Positions 5,381-59,272 of a stretch of 64,000 nucleotides of DNA are shown in pieces (the stretch's first letter is position 1; each line of letters opens with the position of its first letter). The translations under genes and the position numbers were made by a program. The stretch is from Halalkaliarchaeum sp. AArc-CO (GTDB lineage: Archaea; Halobacteriota; Halobacteria; Halobacteriales; Haloferacaceae): the NCBI RefSeq assembly GCF_024972735.1, contig NZ_CP087723.1, positions 930,001-994,000 of the forward strand, read 5' to 3'. The notes under the pieces were generated by a model. That model worked only from the letters and a program-made list of their open reading frames with translations, was not told the origin of the DNA and searched no databases.

Positions 5381-5778
5381 TGGTCGAAAAGCGTACCTGC
5401 GATTACACCGGTGAGGAGATCGAGCCCGGTACGGGCACGATGTTCGTCAAGACGGACGGAACCGTGCTCCACTTCAAGGACTCCAAGGCCGAGAAGAACT
5501 ATCTCCTCGGCCGCGAGGCCCGCGACCTGGAGTGGACCGAGGCGGGACGCTCCGAACGCGCCTCGGCCGTAGAGCACGAGGAAGCTGAAGAGGTCGAAGA
5601 GGCAGAAGAGGCTGAAGAGTCTGAGGAAGCCGAAGAGGCTGAAGAGTCCGAGGAAGGCGGAGAAGCCGAAGAGGTCGAAGGGGCCGAAGAGGCGGAAGAG
5701 TCCGAGGAAGGCGAAGAAGCCGAAGAGGTCGAAGACGCGGAAGCTGAAGCAGACTCGGACGAGGAGGACGACGGATGA
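5380..5778 (+). CDS. rpl24e: 50S ribosomal protein L24e with Glu-rich tail
   Basis: The first 65 residues are canonical L24e, a zinc-ribbon-like ribosomal protein ([20 protein letters not shown]), although the usual archaeal four-Cys site is reduced here to a single Cys. Residues 67-132 form a repetitive acidic tail built from EEAEE/EEVEE/ESEE units, about half of the protein, while most archaeal L24e proteins end near 60-70 residues. The tail DNA is a GAAGAG/GAGGAA simple-repeat tract from about 5575 to 5770. The gene overlaps ndk by four bases (ATGA). Confidence 0.93.
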
Positions 5779-6248
5779 GCCACCACGACGAGCGCACGTT
5801 CGTGATGATCAAGCCCGACGGCGTCCAGCGCGGGCTAATCGGGGAGATCCTCTCCCGCTTCGAAGACCGCGGCCTGAAGGTCGTCGCCGGCAAGTTCCTG
5901 CAGCTCGACGAGGAACTCGCCAGCGAACACTACGCCGAGCACGAGGACAAGCCGTTCTACGACGATCTGGTTTCGTTCATCACGTCGGGTCCCGTCTTCG
6001 CGTTCGTGCTGCAGGGCGCGGACGCGACCCGACAGGTCCGTAGCATGGTCGGCACGACGGACCCGCTGGAAGCCGATCCCGGGACGATCCGCGGGGATTA
6101 CGGCCTCGATCTGGGTCGCAACGTCGTCCACGCCTCCGACCACGAGGACGAGGGGGCCAACGAACGCGAGATCGCGCTGTTCTTCGACGAAGGGGAGCTC
6201 GTCGACTACGAGCGGATCGACGAGACCTGGCTGTACGAGGACCACTGA
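5775..6248 (+). CDS. ndk: Nucleoside diphosphate kinase
   Basis: Ndk transfers the terminal phosphate of ATP to nucleoside diphosphates through a phospho-histidine. The 157-residue protein starts with the family strand [18 protein letters not shown] and contains the catalytic His in NVVHASD. It is fourth in the L7Ae operon with an ATGA overlap with the L24e stop, as in other haloarchaea. The length is usual for this group. Confidence 0.97.
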
Positions 6249-9544: not shown

Positions 9545-11341
9545 ATGAGTTCCCTCCCCGAGCGCGAGGAGATCGATCGCGAATACAAGTGGGCTCTCGA
9601 GTCGATTTACGAGGACGACGACGCCTGGGAGTCCGCCTTCGAGGGGGTGAGCGATCGCGTCGACGAGCTCGCCGCCTACGAGGGTGAACTGACTGACGAT
9701 CCTGGGACGCTTTTGGAATTTCTCGAACTCCGCGAGGAACTGATGCGGACGGTGGCAACCGTTGTAACGTACGCGAACCTCCGGAAAAGCGAGGACACCA
9801 GAAACCAGGAGTACCAGGCGCTCTCGGCGAAGGCCTCGGCGCTGCAGTCCGACGCGGCGGCGGCGACCTCGTACGTGGAGCCGGAACTGCAGACGCTTGC
9901 GGAAGAAGACGTGGAGGCGTTCATGGAGCGGGAACCCGAACTCCGCGAGTACGAGCACTTCTTCGACGACGTGCTCCGGATGAAACCGCACACCCGATCC
10001 CCCGAGATCGAGGAGCTGCTCGCCGAACTCGGCGAGGTCACCTCGGCGCCCTCGGAGATCTACTCGATGCTTTCGGACGCCGACATGACGTTCCCGACCG
10101 TCGAGGATCCGGACGGCGAGCAGGTCGAGATCTCGCAGGCCAACTTCGTCCGTCTCCAGAAGAACCCTCACCGACCGTTCAGACGGACCGTCCACGAGGA
10201 GTTTTACGACGAGTGGGAGACGGTCCGGAACGCGGTCGGCACTGCCCTGGAAAAGCAGCTGAAAAAGGACGTGAAGGTCGCCCGCGCCAGAAACTACGAC
10301 ACCGCCCGCGAGGCCGCCCTCGACGGGTCGAACGTTCCGACGGACGTGTACGACGCGCTGGTCGACACCGTCCGGGAGAACCTTGACGCCCTCCATCGAC
10401 ACTCCAATCTCAAACGCCGGGCGCTGGAGGTCGAGGAACTCCGTTCCTGGGACCTGTACATGTCGCTTACGGGCGAGGAAGGACCTGATGTCGAGTACGA
10501 ACAGGCCGCAGACTGGATCGTCGAAGCGGTCGAACCGCTGGGCGAGCCGTATCAACGCCGACTCCGCGAGGGGCTCGACTCCCGGTGGGTCGACGTCTAC
10601 GAGAACCGCGGGAAGCGCTCGGGGGCGTTCTCGTCGGGAGCGTACGACACTCAGCCGTTCATCCTGGTGAACTACCAGGACGACGTCCCCTCGATGTTCA
10701 CGCTCGCACACGAACTGGGCCACTCGATGCACTCGGAGCTCGCAAAGGAGAGCCAGCCGTGGCAGTACGCCGGTTACGACATCTTCGTCGCGGAGATTGC
10801 CTCGACGGTAAACGAGACGCTGCTTACGGACTATCTGCTTGCGAACGCACCGAGCGACGAACTCCGGGTCCACGTGCTCGATCAGTACCTCGAGCGGTTC
10901 CGGTCGACGCTGTTTAGACAGACGATGTTCGCGGACTTCGAACAGCGGATCCACGCTGCAGTCGAGGACGGGGACCCGCTCACGCCGGACGCGTTCGACC
11001 AGCTGTACGGGAAGCTAAAATCAGAGTTCTACGACCCCGCCGAGCTCGACGAGTGGATCCGCCGGGAGTGGATGCGGATCCCCCACTTCTACTACAACTT
11101 CTACGTGTTCCAGTATGCGACCGGTATCTCCGCGGCAGCGGCCGCCGTCGAACGGATCCGAAACGAGGGCGAACCGGCCGCGGAATCGTACCGGGAGATG
11201 CTCCGCAAGGGCGGCTCGGAGTATCCGATTTCGGTGGTCGAGACCGCCGGCATCGACATGACTTCGCCGGCGCCCGTCGAGTCGGCGATCGGTGTCTACC
11301 GGGAGTATCTCGACCGGGCCGAGGAACTGCTCGAGGTGTAG
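9545..11341 (+). CDS. pepF: Oligoendopeptidase F
   Basis: PepF is a cytoplasmic M3-family zinc metallopeptidase that cleaves short peptides. The 598-residue protein has the zinc motif HELGH in LAHELGHSMHSE, with the third ligand Glu expected shortly afterwards in EIASTVNETLL. The length agrees with bacterial and haloarchaeal PepF (about 600). A TTACC element about 25 nt before the ATG suggests its own promoter. It is followed by the EamA transporter. Confidence 0.94.
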   Translation: MSSLPEREEIDREYKWALESIYEDDDAWESAFEGVSDRVDELAAYEGELTDDPGTLLEFLELREELMRTVATVVTYANLRKSEDTRNQEYQALSAKASALQSDAAAATSYVEPELQTLAEEDVEAFMEREPELREYEHFFDDVLRMKPHTRSPEIEELLAELGEVTSAPSEIYSMLSDADMTFPTVEDPDGEQVEISQANFVRLQKNPHRPFRRTVHEEFYDEWETVRNAVGTALEKQLKKDVKVARARNYDTAREAALDGSNVPTDVYDALVDTVRENLDALHRHSNLKRRALEVEELRSWDLYMSLTGEEGPDVEYEQAADWIVEAVEPLGEPYQRRLREGLDSRWVDVYENRGKRSGAFSSGAYDTQPFILVNYQDDVPSMFTLAHELGHSMHSELAKESQPWQYAGYDIFVAEIASTVNETLLTDYLLANAPSDELRVHVLDQYLERFRSTLFRQTMFADFEQRIHAAVEDGDPLTPDAFDQLYGKLKSEFYDPAELDEWIRREWMRIPHFYYNFYVFQYATGISAAAAAVERIRNEGEPAAESYREMLRKGGSEYPISVVETAGIDMTSPAPVESAIGVYREYLDRAEELLEV

Positions 11342-11423
11342 CTGTCGTCGGCTCCGAGGAGAAGTTGCCGCCGGGAGCACCGGTTTCGAAACGGGTAAGC
11401 GATCCCCGCTGCCACGTGTTCCC

Positions 11424-12323
11424 GTGTCGAATCACGTGACTCGGCCGGCCGTCCCACCGATCGGGGGCCTGGGCGTCGCCATCGTCGCGATCAGCTTCGG
11501 TGCGATCCTCGTGCGCTGGAGCAATGCCCCGAGCGTGATCGCGGCCTTTTATCGGGTGCTGTTCACGACGCTTCCGCTCTTGCCTGTCGCGTTGATCCGA
11601 TATCGCGACGATTTCCGCCGGATCACGCGTCGTGATCTCGGATACGCGGTCGTCTCGGGGGCGGCGCTCGCGATCCACTTCGGCGCCTGGTTCGAGTCGC
11701 TCGACTGGACCAGCGTGGCGGCCAGCGTCACGCTGGTGCAGGCACAGCCGGTGTTCGTCGCGCTTGGGGCGTGGCTCCTGTTGCGCGAACGGGTCACTCG
11801 ACGGATGGTACTGGGCATCCTGGTTGCGGTCGCCGGAATGGTCGGACTGTCGCTCGGGGATCTGCTCGGGGGCGTTCTCGTCGGCCCGAACCCGCTTTAC
11901 GGCAACGCGCTCGCGCTCCTCGGGGCGGTGATGGCGGCCGTCTACGTCCTTGCCGGGCGGGACCTCCGCCAGCGGGTGGCGCTGGTTCCGTACGTCGTCG
12001 TCGTCTACTCCGTCTGTACTGTCGTCCTCTTCGGGTTCGTCGTCGTCGGTGGCCATCCGGTTTCGGGATACCCTGCCCGCGAGTGGGTGCTGTTTGCGGG
12101 GCTGGCGCTCGGGCCGGGGCTGTTCGGCCACACGGTCATAAACTGGGCGCTGGGGCACCTCGAGTCGAGTGTCGTCTCCGTCTCGCTCCTGGGGGAACCA
12201 GTCGGCGCCACGATCCTGGCGCTTTTGTTGCTCGCGGAGGTTCCGACCGCCGTGACGGTCGCCTCGGGAATCGTCGTTCTTTCCGGGATCTATCTCACTG
12301 CCTCCGACCGGCAGGCGGCGTGA
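11424..12323 (+). CDS. EamA/DMT-superfamily transporter
   Basis: The protein carries two repeated EamA domains and about ten hydrophobic helices, the pattern of drug/metabolite transporters, with the first domain at about residues 10-145 and the second at 155-295. The start is set at a GTG at 11424 (VSNHVTRPAVPP), giving 299 residues. An in-frame ATG at 11292 overlaps pepF and adds a Cys/Arg-rich, non-family segment, so it was rejected. The substrate is unknown. It is convergent with the PfkB kinase gene with only 2 bp between the stops. Confidence 0.85.
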   Translation: MSNHVTRPAVPPIGGLGVAIVAISFGAILVRWSNAPSVIAAFYRVLFTTLPLLPVALIRYRDDFRRITRRDLGYAVVSGAALAIHFGAWFESLDWTSVAASVTLVQAQPVFVALGAWLLLRERVTRRMVLGILVAVAGMVGLSLGDLLGGVLVGPNPLYGNALALLGAVMAAVYVLAGRDLRQRVALVPYVVVVYSVCTVVLFGFVVVGGHPVSGYPAREWVLFAGLALGPGLFGHTVINWALGHLESSVVSVSLLGEPVGATILALLLLAEVPTAVTVASGIVVLSGIYLTASDRQAA

Positions 12324-12325
12324 GG

Positions 12326-13294
12326 TCACCGATTTGCGTTCTCGACCAGCGACGCGATCCGGTCCCACGCGAGCTCCGTCCGGGCGGTCGCCTCCATCGC
12401 GGTCAAGGCGCCGCAGGCGTTCGCGACCGCGAGCACCTCCTCGAGAGGTGGGTCGTCGACATCGTCGGGGAAACCTTCCGAATCGGAGGGGCCGCGGTCA
12501 CGGCGGAACCGCCGCCGGAACGCCCGGGAACCGAGCCAGGCAGCGAGAAAGCCGGCGGCGAACGCGTCGCCGGCCCCGGTGGTGTCGACGGCGTCGATCT
12601 CGTAGCCGGAATGGGAGACGGTGCCGTCCGGTCCCGAGACCGACGCGCCGTCCCCTCCGCGTTTGATCACGAGCAGTCCGTCGTCGGGACCGTGCTCCCG
12701 GTAGTCGTCGGCCGAACGTTCCGCCTCCCGGCGGTTGCAAAACAGCACGTCGACGTACGGAAATGCCCGTTTGAAAGCCCGTTGTCCGATACGTCGGCCG
12801 GGATCGAAACTGACAGTCCCGCCGACGTCGCGAACCAGTGCCGCGAGTTCGACGGCGGTTTCGGGTCGCTGGCTCGTCAGATGGAGGTGATCCGCTGTTG
12901 CAACCACCCGGGGCGGGAGATCGCCGGCTGAAAACGCCTCGTTCGCGCCGTCGCTGGCGAACACCATCACCTCGCCGCAGTCGTCGACGACGAGGTACTT
13001 CACCGCGGTCGTTTCGCTCTTCGCGACGAGGACGTGACCGCACTCGACTCCCGAACGGTCCAGCTCCCGCAGGGCGAACGCTCCGGAGTCGTCGCCGCCC
13101 ACGCTGCCGAAGACCGTCGCGTCGGCTTCGAGCCCGGAGAGGCCGACGGCGACGTTTGCGGCGCTCCCTCCGCCCGACTGGATCAGCTTCCGTATCTGCA
13201 CCTCGCCGTCAGGCTCGGGCAGCCTGTCGACGTGCATCGTCACGTCCCAGTTGATGTGGCCCGCACAGATCACGTTCGGCTCGTGTTCGTTCAT
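12326..13294 (-). CDS. PfkB-family kinase, probable ribose-1-phosphate kinase
   Basis: This 322-residue PfkB-fold kinase has the GGGSAANVAVGLSGL loop near residue 41 and the ATP-side motif DTTGAGDAFAAGF with catalytic Asp243. It lies 10 bp after the ribose-1,5-bisphosphate isomerase gene on the same strand, so the two are probably co-transcribed. In Halopiger xanaduensis and other haloarchaea, an ATP-dependent ribose-1-phosphate kinase of this family acts just before R15P isomerase in nucleoside breakdown. That is the best assignment. Other PfkB substrates (nucleosides, fructose) cannot be excluded from sequence. Confidence 0.75.
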   Translation of the reverse strand: MNEHEPNVICAGHINWDVTMHVDRLPEPDGEVQIRKLIQSGGGSAANVAVGLSGLEADATVFGSVGGDDSGAFALRELDRSGVECGHVLVAKSETTAVKYLVVDDCGEVMVFASDGANEAFSAGDLPPRVVATADHLHLTSQRPETAVELAALVRDVGGTVSFDPGRRIGQRAFKRAFPYVDVLFCNRREAERSADDYREHGPDDGLLVIKRGGDGASVSGPDGTVSHSGYEIDAVDTTGAGDAFAAGFLAAWLGSRAFRRRFRRDRGPSDSEGFPDDVDDPPLEEVLAVANACGALTAMEATARTELAWDRIASLVENANR

Positions 13295-13304
13295 TCCTAC
13301 CCCG

Positions 13305-14288
13305 CTACGGCGTAGCGCTCTCGCCGGGTTCCGTCCACGGCTCGTCCGCCGACTCCCCGAACAGCTCCCGCATCAGCGTGACGATGCTCTCGGGTGGGAA
13401 CTGGCCACTCTCGGTGACGATAGCGTCGACGTACCGGGGGGGCGTGACGTCGAAGGCGGGATTTTCCACCTCGATGTCGCCGATCTCCGCCCGAGTTTCC
13501 TCGTCCACGACCTCCTGTTCGTCTCGTGTCTCGATCTCGACGGTGTGTCCCGTCAGCGTCTCCGGGTGGAGCTTGATCGTCTGGGCGGCGACCACGATCG
13601 GCGTTCCCAGTTCGCGGGCGCTGACGGCCAGCCCGGAGGTGCCGATCTTGTTTATCACGCTGCCGTCGGCGGCGATCGAGTCGGCTCCCACCAGTACGTG
13701 GTCGGCCTCCGGGAGATACCGGTGGGCCGCGGAATCGACGATCAGCGTCACGGGAACGCCGAGTTCGCGGAGCCGACTGGCGGTGATGTGGCCCTGATTC
13801 CGCGGGCGGGTTTCCTTTACGTACGCCTCGAGCTGTTTGCCCTTGTCGACCGCGGCCTCGACACACGAGAGGACGTCAGTCGAGTGGCAGTGGGTCATCA
13901 CGACGTCGCCGTCGCGGAGCCGGTTTGCGCCGACTTCGCCGAGCTTGTCCTGTGCGCGGTCGAGTCGGTCGCCGAACTCTCGGGCGGCATCGACCACGTT
14001 CCGCCGCAGCGTGTCGACGTCGTCGACGCCGTCGCCGTCCATTCGACGGAGTACGTATCGGAGCGCGTTGGGCAACGACACCGCGGTCGGACGCGTCTCG
14101 TGGAGCCTTCGGGCGGCCGCCCGGAGCTCCCGCCTGAACGCCTCCGGATCGCTCGCGGTGCTCGCCTCCGCCTGGGCGGCAAGTGCGTCTGCCGCCGCCG
14201 CAGCGATCGTTGCCGCCCCGCGAATCTCCATCGCGGCGATGGCATCGGCGGTCGACTCTACCGCCTCGCCCAGCGTTGGCGTGGTCAT
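13305..14288 (-). CDS. Ribose-1,5-bisphosphate isomerase
   Basis: The enzyme turns ribose-1,5-bisphosphate into ribulose-1,5-bisphosphate in archaeal AMP/nucleoside degradation. It belongs to the eIF2B-like family. Cys134 (in MTHCHSTDVL) and Asp203 (in LVGADSIAADG) align with the catalytic Cys133 and Asp202 of the Thermococcus enzyme, and GTSGLAV follows. The start is placed at 14288 (MTTPTLGEAVE) because a longer frame from 14387 adds residues unlike the family. The length of 327 is typical. The gene is the first of a probable operon with the PfkB kinase. Confidence 0.93.
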   Translation of the reverse strand: MTTPTLGEAVESTADAIAAMEIRGAATIAAAAADALAAQAEASTASDPEAFRRELRAAARRLHETRPTAVSLPNALRYVLRRMDGDGVDDVDTLRRNVVDAAREFGDRLDRAQDKLGEVGANRLRDGDVVMTHCHSTDVLSCVEAAVDKGKQLEAYVKETRPRNQGHITASRLRELGVPVTLIVDSAAHRYLPEADHVLVGADSIAADGSVINKIGTSGLAVSARELGTPIVVAAQTIKLHPETLTGHTVEIETRDEQEVVDEETRAEIGDIEVENPAFDVTPPRYVDAIVTESGQFPPESIVTLMRELFGESADEPWTEPGESATP

Positions 14289-14526
14289 GGCTCCCTGTGG
14301 GTGCCCCGAACAAAAGGGCGTTCCGGCCGTGTCGGCTGCCGAGGCCCGGACAGTTCTTCCTGAGCTCCGGCTTCGTCCGAGAAACATTTATGCGGTATGA
14401 GGTAACAACCCAGACCGTCGTGTCCCTCCGTACAGTGGTCCTCGCCGCCCGTACAGCCCTCCCCGCCGCCCGCAAACTGCTCGGTCGGCGTGCTCGTCCG
14501 ACGCTTCGCTTCGCCGTGATCCAACC

Positions 14527-55532: not shown

Positions 55533-56804
55533 ATGGTCGGAATTACCTACGAGGATTTCCTCGACACGTCGTACGAACCGGCCGAAGACGAACTCGTCTG
55601 TCGGTTCCGGATCCGGCCGGCAGCCGATATGACTGTCGAAGACGCCGCCTCTCGGGTGGCAAGCGAATCCTCGAACGGGACGTGGGCGGAGCTACAGGTC
55701 GACGGGGAGGTCCGTGACCTGTCGGCGACTGCCTTCGCGATCGACGACGATACTGCCCCCGGGGCTGACGCCACGGAGATCTCCGTCGCGTACCCGGACG
55801 CGCTGTTCGAACCCGGCAACATGGCCCAGGTGCTGTCCTGCATCGCGGGCAACATCATGGGAATGAAGGCGGTCGACCGCATTCGCCTCGTCGACTGCAC
55901 GTGGCCGGACCCGCTTGCGACGTCGTTTCCCGGTCCGCTGTACGGTTCGTCGGTCCGCGAGGAGTTCTTCGATGCCGGGGACAGACCCATTCTGGCGACC
56001 GTTCCCAAACCCAAGGTCGGCCTCACGACCGAACAACACGTCCAGGTCGGCTACGACGCCTGGACCGGCGGGCTCGATCTGCTCAAGGACGACGAGAACC
56101 TCACCGACCAGTCGTTCAACCCGTTCCAGGAACGGCTCACGGAGTCGTTTGCGGCCCGCGATCGGGCCCAGGAGGAGACCGGCGAGCCGAAGTCGTACCT
56201 CATAAACGTCACCGCGGACGCGAACACGATGCTCGACCGCGTCGACGACGTCGCCGCCGCGGGTGGGGAGTACGTGATGGTCGACGTGATCACCACCGGA
56301 TGGGCGGCCGTCCAGGCCGTCCGAGAGCGGTGTGAACGACACGGGATGGCGATTCACGCCCACCGCGCGATGCACGCGGCGTTCGATCGACTCCCCGAAC
56401 ACGGCGTCTCGATGCGTGTCCTCGCACAGATCGCCAGGCTGTGTGGCGTCGATCAGATCCACACCGGGACTGCCGATCTCGGTAAACTCGAAAACGAGGA
56501 CACCTACGGGATCAACGACTGGCTCGCGGGCGATCTCCACGGCCTCGAGGACGTGTTGCCGACAGCGTCTGGCGGCCTCCACCCCGGACTGGTGCCCGAA
56601 CTCCTCGATCGCCTCGGTACGAACCTCTGTATCCAGGTCGGCGGCGGCGTGCACGGCCACCCCGACGGCACTCACGCGGGGGCGAAGGCGTTCCGCGCGG
56701 CCGTCGGTGCTACCGTCGACGGCGTGTCACTCGAGGAGCGCGCACGCGATCATCCCGAACTCGAGACCGCAATCGAGATGTGGGGAACCGAGACGCCGCG
56801 ATAA
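55533..56804 (+). CDS. rbcL: Form III Rubisco large chain
   Basis: Form III Rubisco carboxylates ribulose-1,5-bisphosphate to two 3-phosphoglycerates, in archaea mostly for nucleotide ribose use. Key residues are present: KPK at 159-161, carbamylated Lys185 with Asp187 and Glu188 (LLKDDENL), Glu45, Asn107, His275/His277 (HAHRAMH), His310, Lys318, Ser346 (TASGG) and the GGG phosphate site near 370. The 423-residue length fits. A TATA box 26 nt upstream favours this start over the long in-frame opening back to 54744. With R15P isomerase and a PfkB kinase elsewhere in the window, a Rubisco-based pentose bisphosphate route is likely. Confidence 0.95.
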   Translation: MVGITYEDFLDTSYEPAEDELVCRFRIRPAADMTVEDAASRVASESSNGTWAELQVDGEVRDLSATAFAIDDDTAPGADATEISVAYPDALFEPGNMAQVLSCIAGNIMGMKAVDRIRLVDCTWPDPLATSFPGPLYGSSVREEFFDAGDRPILATVPKPKVGLTTEQHVQVGYDAWTGGLDLLKDDENLTDQSFNPFQERLTESFAARDRAQEETGEPKSYLINVTADANTMLDRVDDVAAAGGEYVMVDVITTGWAAVQAVRERCERHGMAIHAHRAMHAAFDRLPEHGVSMRVLAQIARLCGVDQIHTGTADLGKLENEDTYGINDWLAGDLHGLEDVLPTASGGLHPGLVPELLDRLGTNLCIQVGGGVHGHPDGTHAGAKAFRAAVGATVDGVSLEERARDHPELETAIEMWGTETPR

Positions 56805-58195: not shown

Positions 58196-59272
58196 ATGAC
58201 GACAGCACACGCCGACGGGCCGGATGACCTCGAGCGCCGTTCGGAGTTCGAGGGGGCCACCACTATCGAGGGAACGATCCTCGCGGGTCGAGAGTTCCAC
58301 CCGGTCGAGGGACGGGTCGTGTTCGAGGACGGACGAATAACTGCAGTCGAGGAGGCGTCCGTCGACAGCGACGCGATCGTACTCCCGGCGTTCGTCAACG
58401 CCCACACCCACATCGGCGACTCGATCGCGAAGGAGGCCGGCGAGGGGCTCTCGCTCGAGGAACTGGTTGCGCCGCCGGACGGGCTGAAACACCAGTTGCT
58501 CGAAGCAGCCGACCGCGAGTCGATGGTCGAAGCGATGCGGCGGTCGCTCCGTTACATGGCGTCGACGGGGACTGGGGCGTTCCTCGAGTTCCGCGAGGGG
58601 GGACTCGAGGGCGTCGAACTCATCCGTGACGCGCTCGAGGAATCGCCGATCGAACCGGTGATTCTCGGCCGGGAAACCGTCGCGGCGATGCGGGAAAGCG
58701 ACGGGTTCGGCGCGTCCGGTGCTCGGGATGGGGAGTTCTCCAGCGTCCGCGAGGCGACTCGGGAGGCGGGAAAACTGTTCGGTATTCACGCCGGTGAGCG
58801 CGACTCCGACGACATCAACCCGGCGCTGGATCTCGACCCATCGTTCCTCGTTCACATGACGCACGTCCGGGAGCTCCACCTCGACCGCCTCGAAGACAGG
58901 GCGATACCGGTCGTAGTCTGTCCGCGGTCGAACCTGGTGACGAACGTCGGCGTGCCGCCGATCCGCGAACTCGTCGAGCGAACCACGGTGGCGCTTGGAA
59001 CGGACAACGTGATGCTCAACTCCCCGTCGATGTTCCGGGAGATGGAGTTCGCGTCGAAGCTTTCGGACGTTCCTGCGGCGACGGTACTCCGGATGGCGAC
59101 GATCAACGGCGCGGAGACGGCTGGGCTGAACTGCGGACTGATCGAAGCGGGTCGCGACGCCCGGCTGCTCGTCCTCGACGGTGGAAGCAACAACCTCGAG
59201 GGTGTTACTGACGTCCGGCGCGCCGTCGTCCGGCGCGCGGGACACGGCGACGTCTCGCGTGTGATTCTGTAG
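58196..59272 (+). CDS. Amidohydrolase-family protein (deaminase-like)
   Basis: The 358-residue metal-dependent hydrolase has the first metal motif NAHTHIGD (His70, His72), a His in FGIHAGE near residue 197, a second His near VHMTHVRE, and the metal-binding Asp in LGTDNVM near residue 276. The fold is the cytosine/adenosine deaminase branch of amidohydrolases. The substrate could be a nucleobase or related amine. It follows the HD gene by 68 bp on the same strand, next to Rubisco, giving a possible nucleotide-degradation set. Confidence 0.82.
   Translation: MTTAHADGPDDLERRSEFEGATTIEGTILAGREFHPVEGRVVFEDGRITAVEEASVDSDAIVLPAFVNAHTHIGDSIAKEAGEGLSLEELVAPPDGLKHQLLEAADRESMVEAMRRSLRYMASTGTGAFLEFREGGLEGVELIRDALEESPIEPVILGRETVAAMRESDGFGASGARDGEFSSVREATREAGKLFGIHAGERDSDDINPALDLDPSFLVHMTHVRELHLDRLEDRAIPVVVCPRSNLVTNVGVPPIRELVERTTVALGTDNVMLNSPSMFREMEFASKLSDVPAATVLRMATINGAETAGLNCGLIEAGRDARLLVLDGGSNNLEGVTDVRRAVVRRAGHGDVSRVIL

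Follow-up and report, generated by a model that had tools for sequence, protein, structure and literature searches.

A ribose-1-phosphate kinase/R15P isomerase gene pair and a form III Rubisco that very probably belong to a Rubisco-type pentose bisphosphate pathway in a haloarchaeon

The pentose bisphosphate pathway was originally described in Thermococcus kodakarensis, and throughout halophiles an ATP-dependent ribose-1-phosphate (R1P) kinase stands in place of the Thermococcales ADP enzyme (Sato et al. 2022, PMC9700705). In that study Rubisco was present in 25 of 44 isomerase-bearing halophiles, 14 of these 25 also having an NMP phosphorylase, and Rubisco and RuBP phosphatase were complementary over 63 species, with no overlap reported. 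A kinase-isomerase pair together with Rubisco is already a documented haloarchaeal arrangement (PMC9700705), and because kinase and isomerase are common to both published pathways, the Rubisco-type and the non-carboxylating one, their pairing with Rubisco does not in itself amount to two modules.

We analysed a stretch of 64,000 nucleotides (the window), positions 930001-994000 of a 3.01 Mb contig (C2) in a 3.18 Mb haloarchaeal genome (G000; 99.91% complete, 2.42% contamination). On its minus strand lie an R15P isomerase gene (13305-14288; 327 aa), first of the pair with its ATG at 14288, and, downstream of it, a PfkB kinase gene (12326-13294; 322 aa), and the 10 bp that the preliminary description had placed between the two open reading frames were borne out. 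The isomerase frame is also open up to an ATG at 14387, and the start at 14288 fits the family. On the other side, the kinase meets a convergent EamA transporter gene (11292-12323, plus strand), the two stop codons lying two bases apart. The isomerase, which would convert R15P to RuBP, scores 468.9 bits against TIGR00511 (cut-off 314.1) and has the eIF2B/MtnA fold. A phmmer comparison aligned it over its full length with the archaeal R15P isomerase of PDB 5yfj (E 1e-92), with the MTHCHS and GADSI motifs, and the C and D of the active-site motifs, retained.

The kinase carries a GAGD motif (DTTGAGDAFAAGF) and scores 148 bits against Pfam PfkB and 402 bits against the R1P kinase model NF053626 (cut-off 330). 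Since this kinase family also occurs in genomes that have no R15P isomerase (of 174 genomes, 141 score above the cut-off of the kinase model and 116 above that of the isomerase model), the substrate is not proven by the family name alone. We therefore weighed whether the protein could be a general ribokinase or nucleoside kinase that adjoins the isomerase without sharing its pathway, a reading in keeping with its closest solved structures, which are MJ0406 and ribokinase/fructokinase-type enzymes. Against this stand its score of only 98 bits with the ribokinase model (cut-off 299.65), the recurrence of the kinase-isomerase pair across the class Halobacteria, and the characterised homologue Halxa_1682, likewise an operon partner, which was assayed as an R1P kinase (PMC9700705); a general kinase is accordingly very unlikely. 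The earlier assignment of the two genes as an ATP-R1P kinase/R15P isomerase pair is supported by both model scores, and the kinase's predicted ATP-dependent R1P kinase activity is supported by its likeness to Halxa_1682.

The only Rubisco-family gene of the whole genome also lies in the window, on the plus strand at 55533-56804 (423 aa); its open reading frame is mechanically listed from 54744, and the first homologous methionine (ATG) is at 55533. It matches the form III large subunit model TIGR03326 at 612.6 bits (cut-off 497.45), and this score, like those of the kinase and isomerase, exceeds chance by far. Its closest named relatives, from Halomarina, Halohasta and Haladaptatus, are 76-78% identical. 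Alignment to PDB 2cwx and 6hun bore out the claim of intact catalytic residues: K159, K161, K185, D187, E188, H277, R278, H310 and K318 are retained, as are the KDDEN carbamylation motif, HAHRAMH, the loop-6 lysine and the phosphate-binding glycines, and nine haloarchaeal Rubiscos show no variation at the activation and active-site positions. We take these residues to have the usual catalytic roles, K185 being presumably the carbamylated lysine. The alignment supports a form III Rubisco that looks functional, encoded on the same chromosome as the pair and predicted to turn RuBP and CO2 into two 3-phosphoglycerates. Two genes downstream of Rubisco (58196-59272, plus strand) is an amidohydrolase of the Amidohydro_1/adenosine deaminase group, a possible, putative link to nucleosides or bases.

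The preliminary description had paired the kinase-isomerase operon with this Rubisco, and all three genes were confirmed; they do not share an operon, as some 41 kb separate Rubisco and the isomerase. Isomerase, kinase and Rubisco genes fall within a few kb of one another in 11 of 59 Rubisco genomes (G041, G054, G058, G059, G075, G086, G114, G117, G156, G159 and G168; for example G086:C1 99564-102641 and G054:C12 110936-114030), and in Haloferax-type genomes Rubisco is often less than 10 kb from the isomerase and an NMP phosphorylase. The 41 kb of the window resemble the 42-66 kb found in three genomes of the same family (G098, G061, G017). The presence of Rubisco and the pair in one window is consistent with loose linkage and not with an operon.

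Enzymes that could feed the pair were sought in the rest of the genome, as the preliminary description had proposed, and both kinds were found. An NMP (AMP) phosphorylase gene, about 0.9 Mb from the pair at C2:1837899-1839335, scores 609.2 bits against TIGR03327 (cut-off 535). A uridine/guanosine-type nucleoside phosphorylase (C2:1067758-1068420) is 71% identical to a Halobacterium counterpart (G035) that sits near kinase and isomerase genes, and a second nucleoside phosphorylase, 40% identical, is encoded on the same contig. With Rubisco 41 kb and the NMP phosphorylase 0.9 Mb away, these genes do not form a single operon. The nucleoside phosphorylases would release ribose-1-phosphate, which the PfkB kinase would phosphorylate with ATP to R15P, and the NMP phosphorylase may produce R15P directly from AMP, CMP and UMP. 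R15P would then be isomerised to RuBP and carboxylated by the form III Rubisco, yielding two molecules of 3-phosphoglycerate for central metabolism. The genes themselves, their families, the gene order and the intact catalytic residues are as observed above; each activity, and the direction of flux, would follow those of characterised relatives. Taken together, these data suggest that the three enzymes of the window very probably act in a Rubisco-type pentose bisphosphate pathway that breaks down nucleosides and NMPs; the Rubisco-free branch is absent.

It had also been posited that the cell carries both modules and could route ribose either to 3-phosphoglycerate or to DHAP plus glycolaldehyde, the latter via RuBP phosphatase and Ru1P aldolase. 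This proposal fails for the present genome. Nowhere in its 99.91% complete sequence did a protein match the RuBP 5-phosphatase model NF053830 at E<=1e-40, the best HAD protein scoring 33.5 bits where the model requires 330. The search for a Ru1P aldolase returned one class II aldolase gene (C2:385618-386235; 5598-6239 of locus L135) that passes the NCBI model NF053831 at 339.1 bits (cut-off 300), but it is paired with mtnA: the next gene downstream on the same strand encodes MtnA (L135 4429-5520; TIGR00512 354.8 bits, cut-off 279). When 41 aldolases were placed in a tree, the 33 from genomes with the phosphatase all grouped together (support 100/99) and the G000 aldolase, on a long branch, fell outside that group; the G173 sequence had been left out by a motif filter. 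The NF053831 match was considered as support for a second route and rejected on gene context and tree position.

That RuBP is split here between Rubisco, giving 3-phosphoglycerate, and RuBP phosphatase plus Ru1P aldolase, giving DHAP and glycolaldehyde, is consequently most improbable: the aldolase score favours it, but the phosphatase is missing, the aldolase belongs with MtnA and outside the phosphatase-linked clade, and 53 of 53 genomes with RuBP phosphatase also have an aldolase. Since the second route lacks its committing enzyme in this genome, routing between the two sets of products is not supported, and the dual-route idea, striking as it is, is not applicable here. We give equally little credence to a variant in which the MtnA-linked aldolase also cleaves Ru1P made by an unrecognised RuBP phosphatase, so that Rubisco and a DHAP-forming branch would share RuBP.

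The aldolase probably serves instead in a DHAP shunt, apart from the pathway of the window, in which MTA phosphorylase, MtnA and a class II aldolase salvage 5'-methylthioadenosine and 5'-deoxyadenosine; this shunt is an established pathway (PMC10986504, PMC6079011). An MTA phosphorylase gene is also present (C2:750473; TIGR01694 285.6 bits, cut-off 274.85), which makes a shunt for 5'-deoxynucleosides the likelier role, and the same aldolase-MtnA pair occurs in four further genomes (G001, G007, G110, G173), all without RuBP phosphatase. On the other side, the 41-aldolase tree did not recover the MtnA-linked aldolases as a single clade. This alternative bears only on the aldolase's role and does not conflict with the Rubisco-type pathway. 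NF053831 captures MtnA-paired aldolases in phosphatase-lacking genomes (L135 in G000; L140, L141, L142 and L143), and its cut-off therefore appears to let through a further group linked to MtnA, so that annotation based on the model can wrongly suggest a non-carboxylating pathway.

The two RuBP-consuming routes were then compared across 174 Halobacteria genomes, counting matches above curated cut-offs. R1P kinase was found in 141, R15P isomerase in 116, form III Rubisco in 59, RuBP phosphatase in 53 and NMP phosphorylase in 30. The isomerase accompanies Rubisco in 58 of 59 genomes, and both the isomerase and an NF053831 aldolase accompany the phosphatase in 53 of 53. Among the 116 isomerase-positive genomes, 55 have Rubisco only, 50 phosphatase only, 3 both (expected 26.5) and 8 neither (Fisher p=3e-20, a value that overstates independence as the genomes are related, although the pattern spans several families). 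Rubisco and RuBP phosphatase therefore nearly exclude each other in isomerase-positive haloarchaea. NMP phosphorylase tracks Rubisco in the same set, with 26 genomes having both and 3 having it without Rubisco (p=8e-7). This comparison extends the complementarity reported by Sato et al. and adds exceptions to it; that the two enzymes are almost perfectly alternative routes for RuBP across haloarchaea is useful beyond the window.

Several genomes fell outside this division. Four of one genus (g29: G024, G147, G162, G172; loci L136-L139 and L234-L237) have R15P isomerase and R1P kinase with neither Rubisco nor RuBP phosphatase, and an NF053831-type aldolase alone. Gene-by-gene reading beside the isomerase in these four and in G140 and G068, all picked as lacking both enzymes, revealed no clear candidate for another RuBP-consuming enzyme. 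In G140 (genus g41; also in G079 and G145), an R15P isomerase-like gene (L238 7051-7998) occurs without R1P kinase, Rubisco or RuBP phosphatase and adjoins deoxyribose-phosphate aldolase-like and MTA/purine phosphorylase-like genes; it may have another substrate. Rubisco-like proteins scoring 227-298 bits against the form III cut-off of 497 were found at G026:C1:2952657-2953901, G106:C1:1790409-1791614 and G173:C1:1982983-1984200, and are probably form IV.

All three isomerase-positive genomes with both Rubisco and RuBP phosphatase belong to one genus (g23), Halobacterium. RuBP phosphatase is present in 13 of 13 Halobacterium genomes, four of which (G012, G023, G127, G175) also have a form III Rubisco, and in all four it lies 32-40 kb away from the phosphatase gene; loci with the phosphatase-aldolase pair are L144, L145 and L146, and those with Rubisco L046, L054 and L047. 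This overlap is absent from the report of Sato et al. (PMC9700705). Judged from gene content, the dual-route idea appears sound for some Halobacterium species, which would be a real case of it, and the genomes that keep both enzymes are where competition between the branches can be tested. Rubisco fragments beside RuBP phosphatase in two genomes (G025:C59:88761-89087, covering 126 model positions, and G107:C1:242290-242481, covering 64) suggest possible remnants of Rubisco loss in Halobacterium, with assembly gaps as the alternative.

Compared with known systems, the DHAP shunt (PMC10986504, PMC6079011) shares MTA phosphorylase, MtnA and a class II aldolase adjoining MtnA with this genome; the difference is that these genes lie outside the window, and their haloarchaeal role here is putative. 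The non-carboxylating pentose bisphosphate pathway (PMC9700705) shares the nucleoside phosphorylase, ATP-R1P kinase and R15P isomerase, but is described for genomes with no Rubisco and with a Ru1P aldolase in an operon with the phosphatase, whereas here Rubisco is present at 55533-56804, RuBP phosphatase is lacking and the aldolase lies outside the phosphatase-linked clade. The Thermococcales pathway differs in its ADP-dependent R1P kinase, the kinase here being of the ATP type. Closest is the haloarchaeal pentose bisphosphate pathway with NMP phosphorylase and Rubisco (PMC9700705, Fig. 5a), all of whose enzymes are encoded in the genome: NMP phosphorylase, ATP-type R1P kinase, R15P isomerase, form III Rubisco and nucleoside phosphorylases. 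The only difference is gene placement, with Rubisco 41 kb off and the NMP phosphorylase elsewhere on the chromosome, and the comparison assigns G000 securely to a class of haloarchaeal nucleoside breakdown that has already been described.
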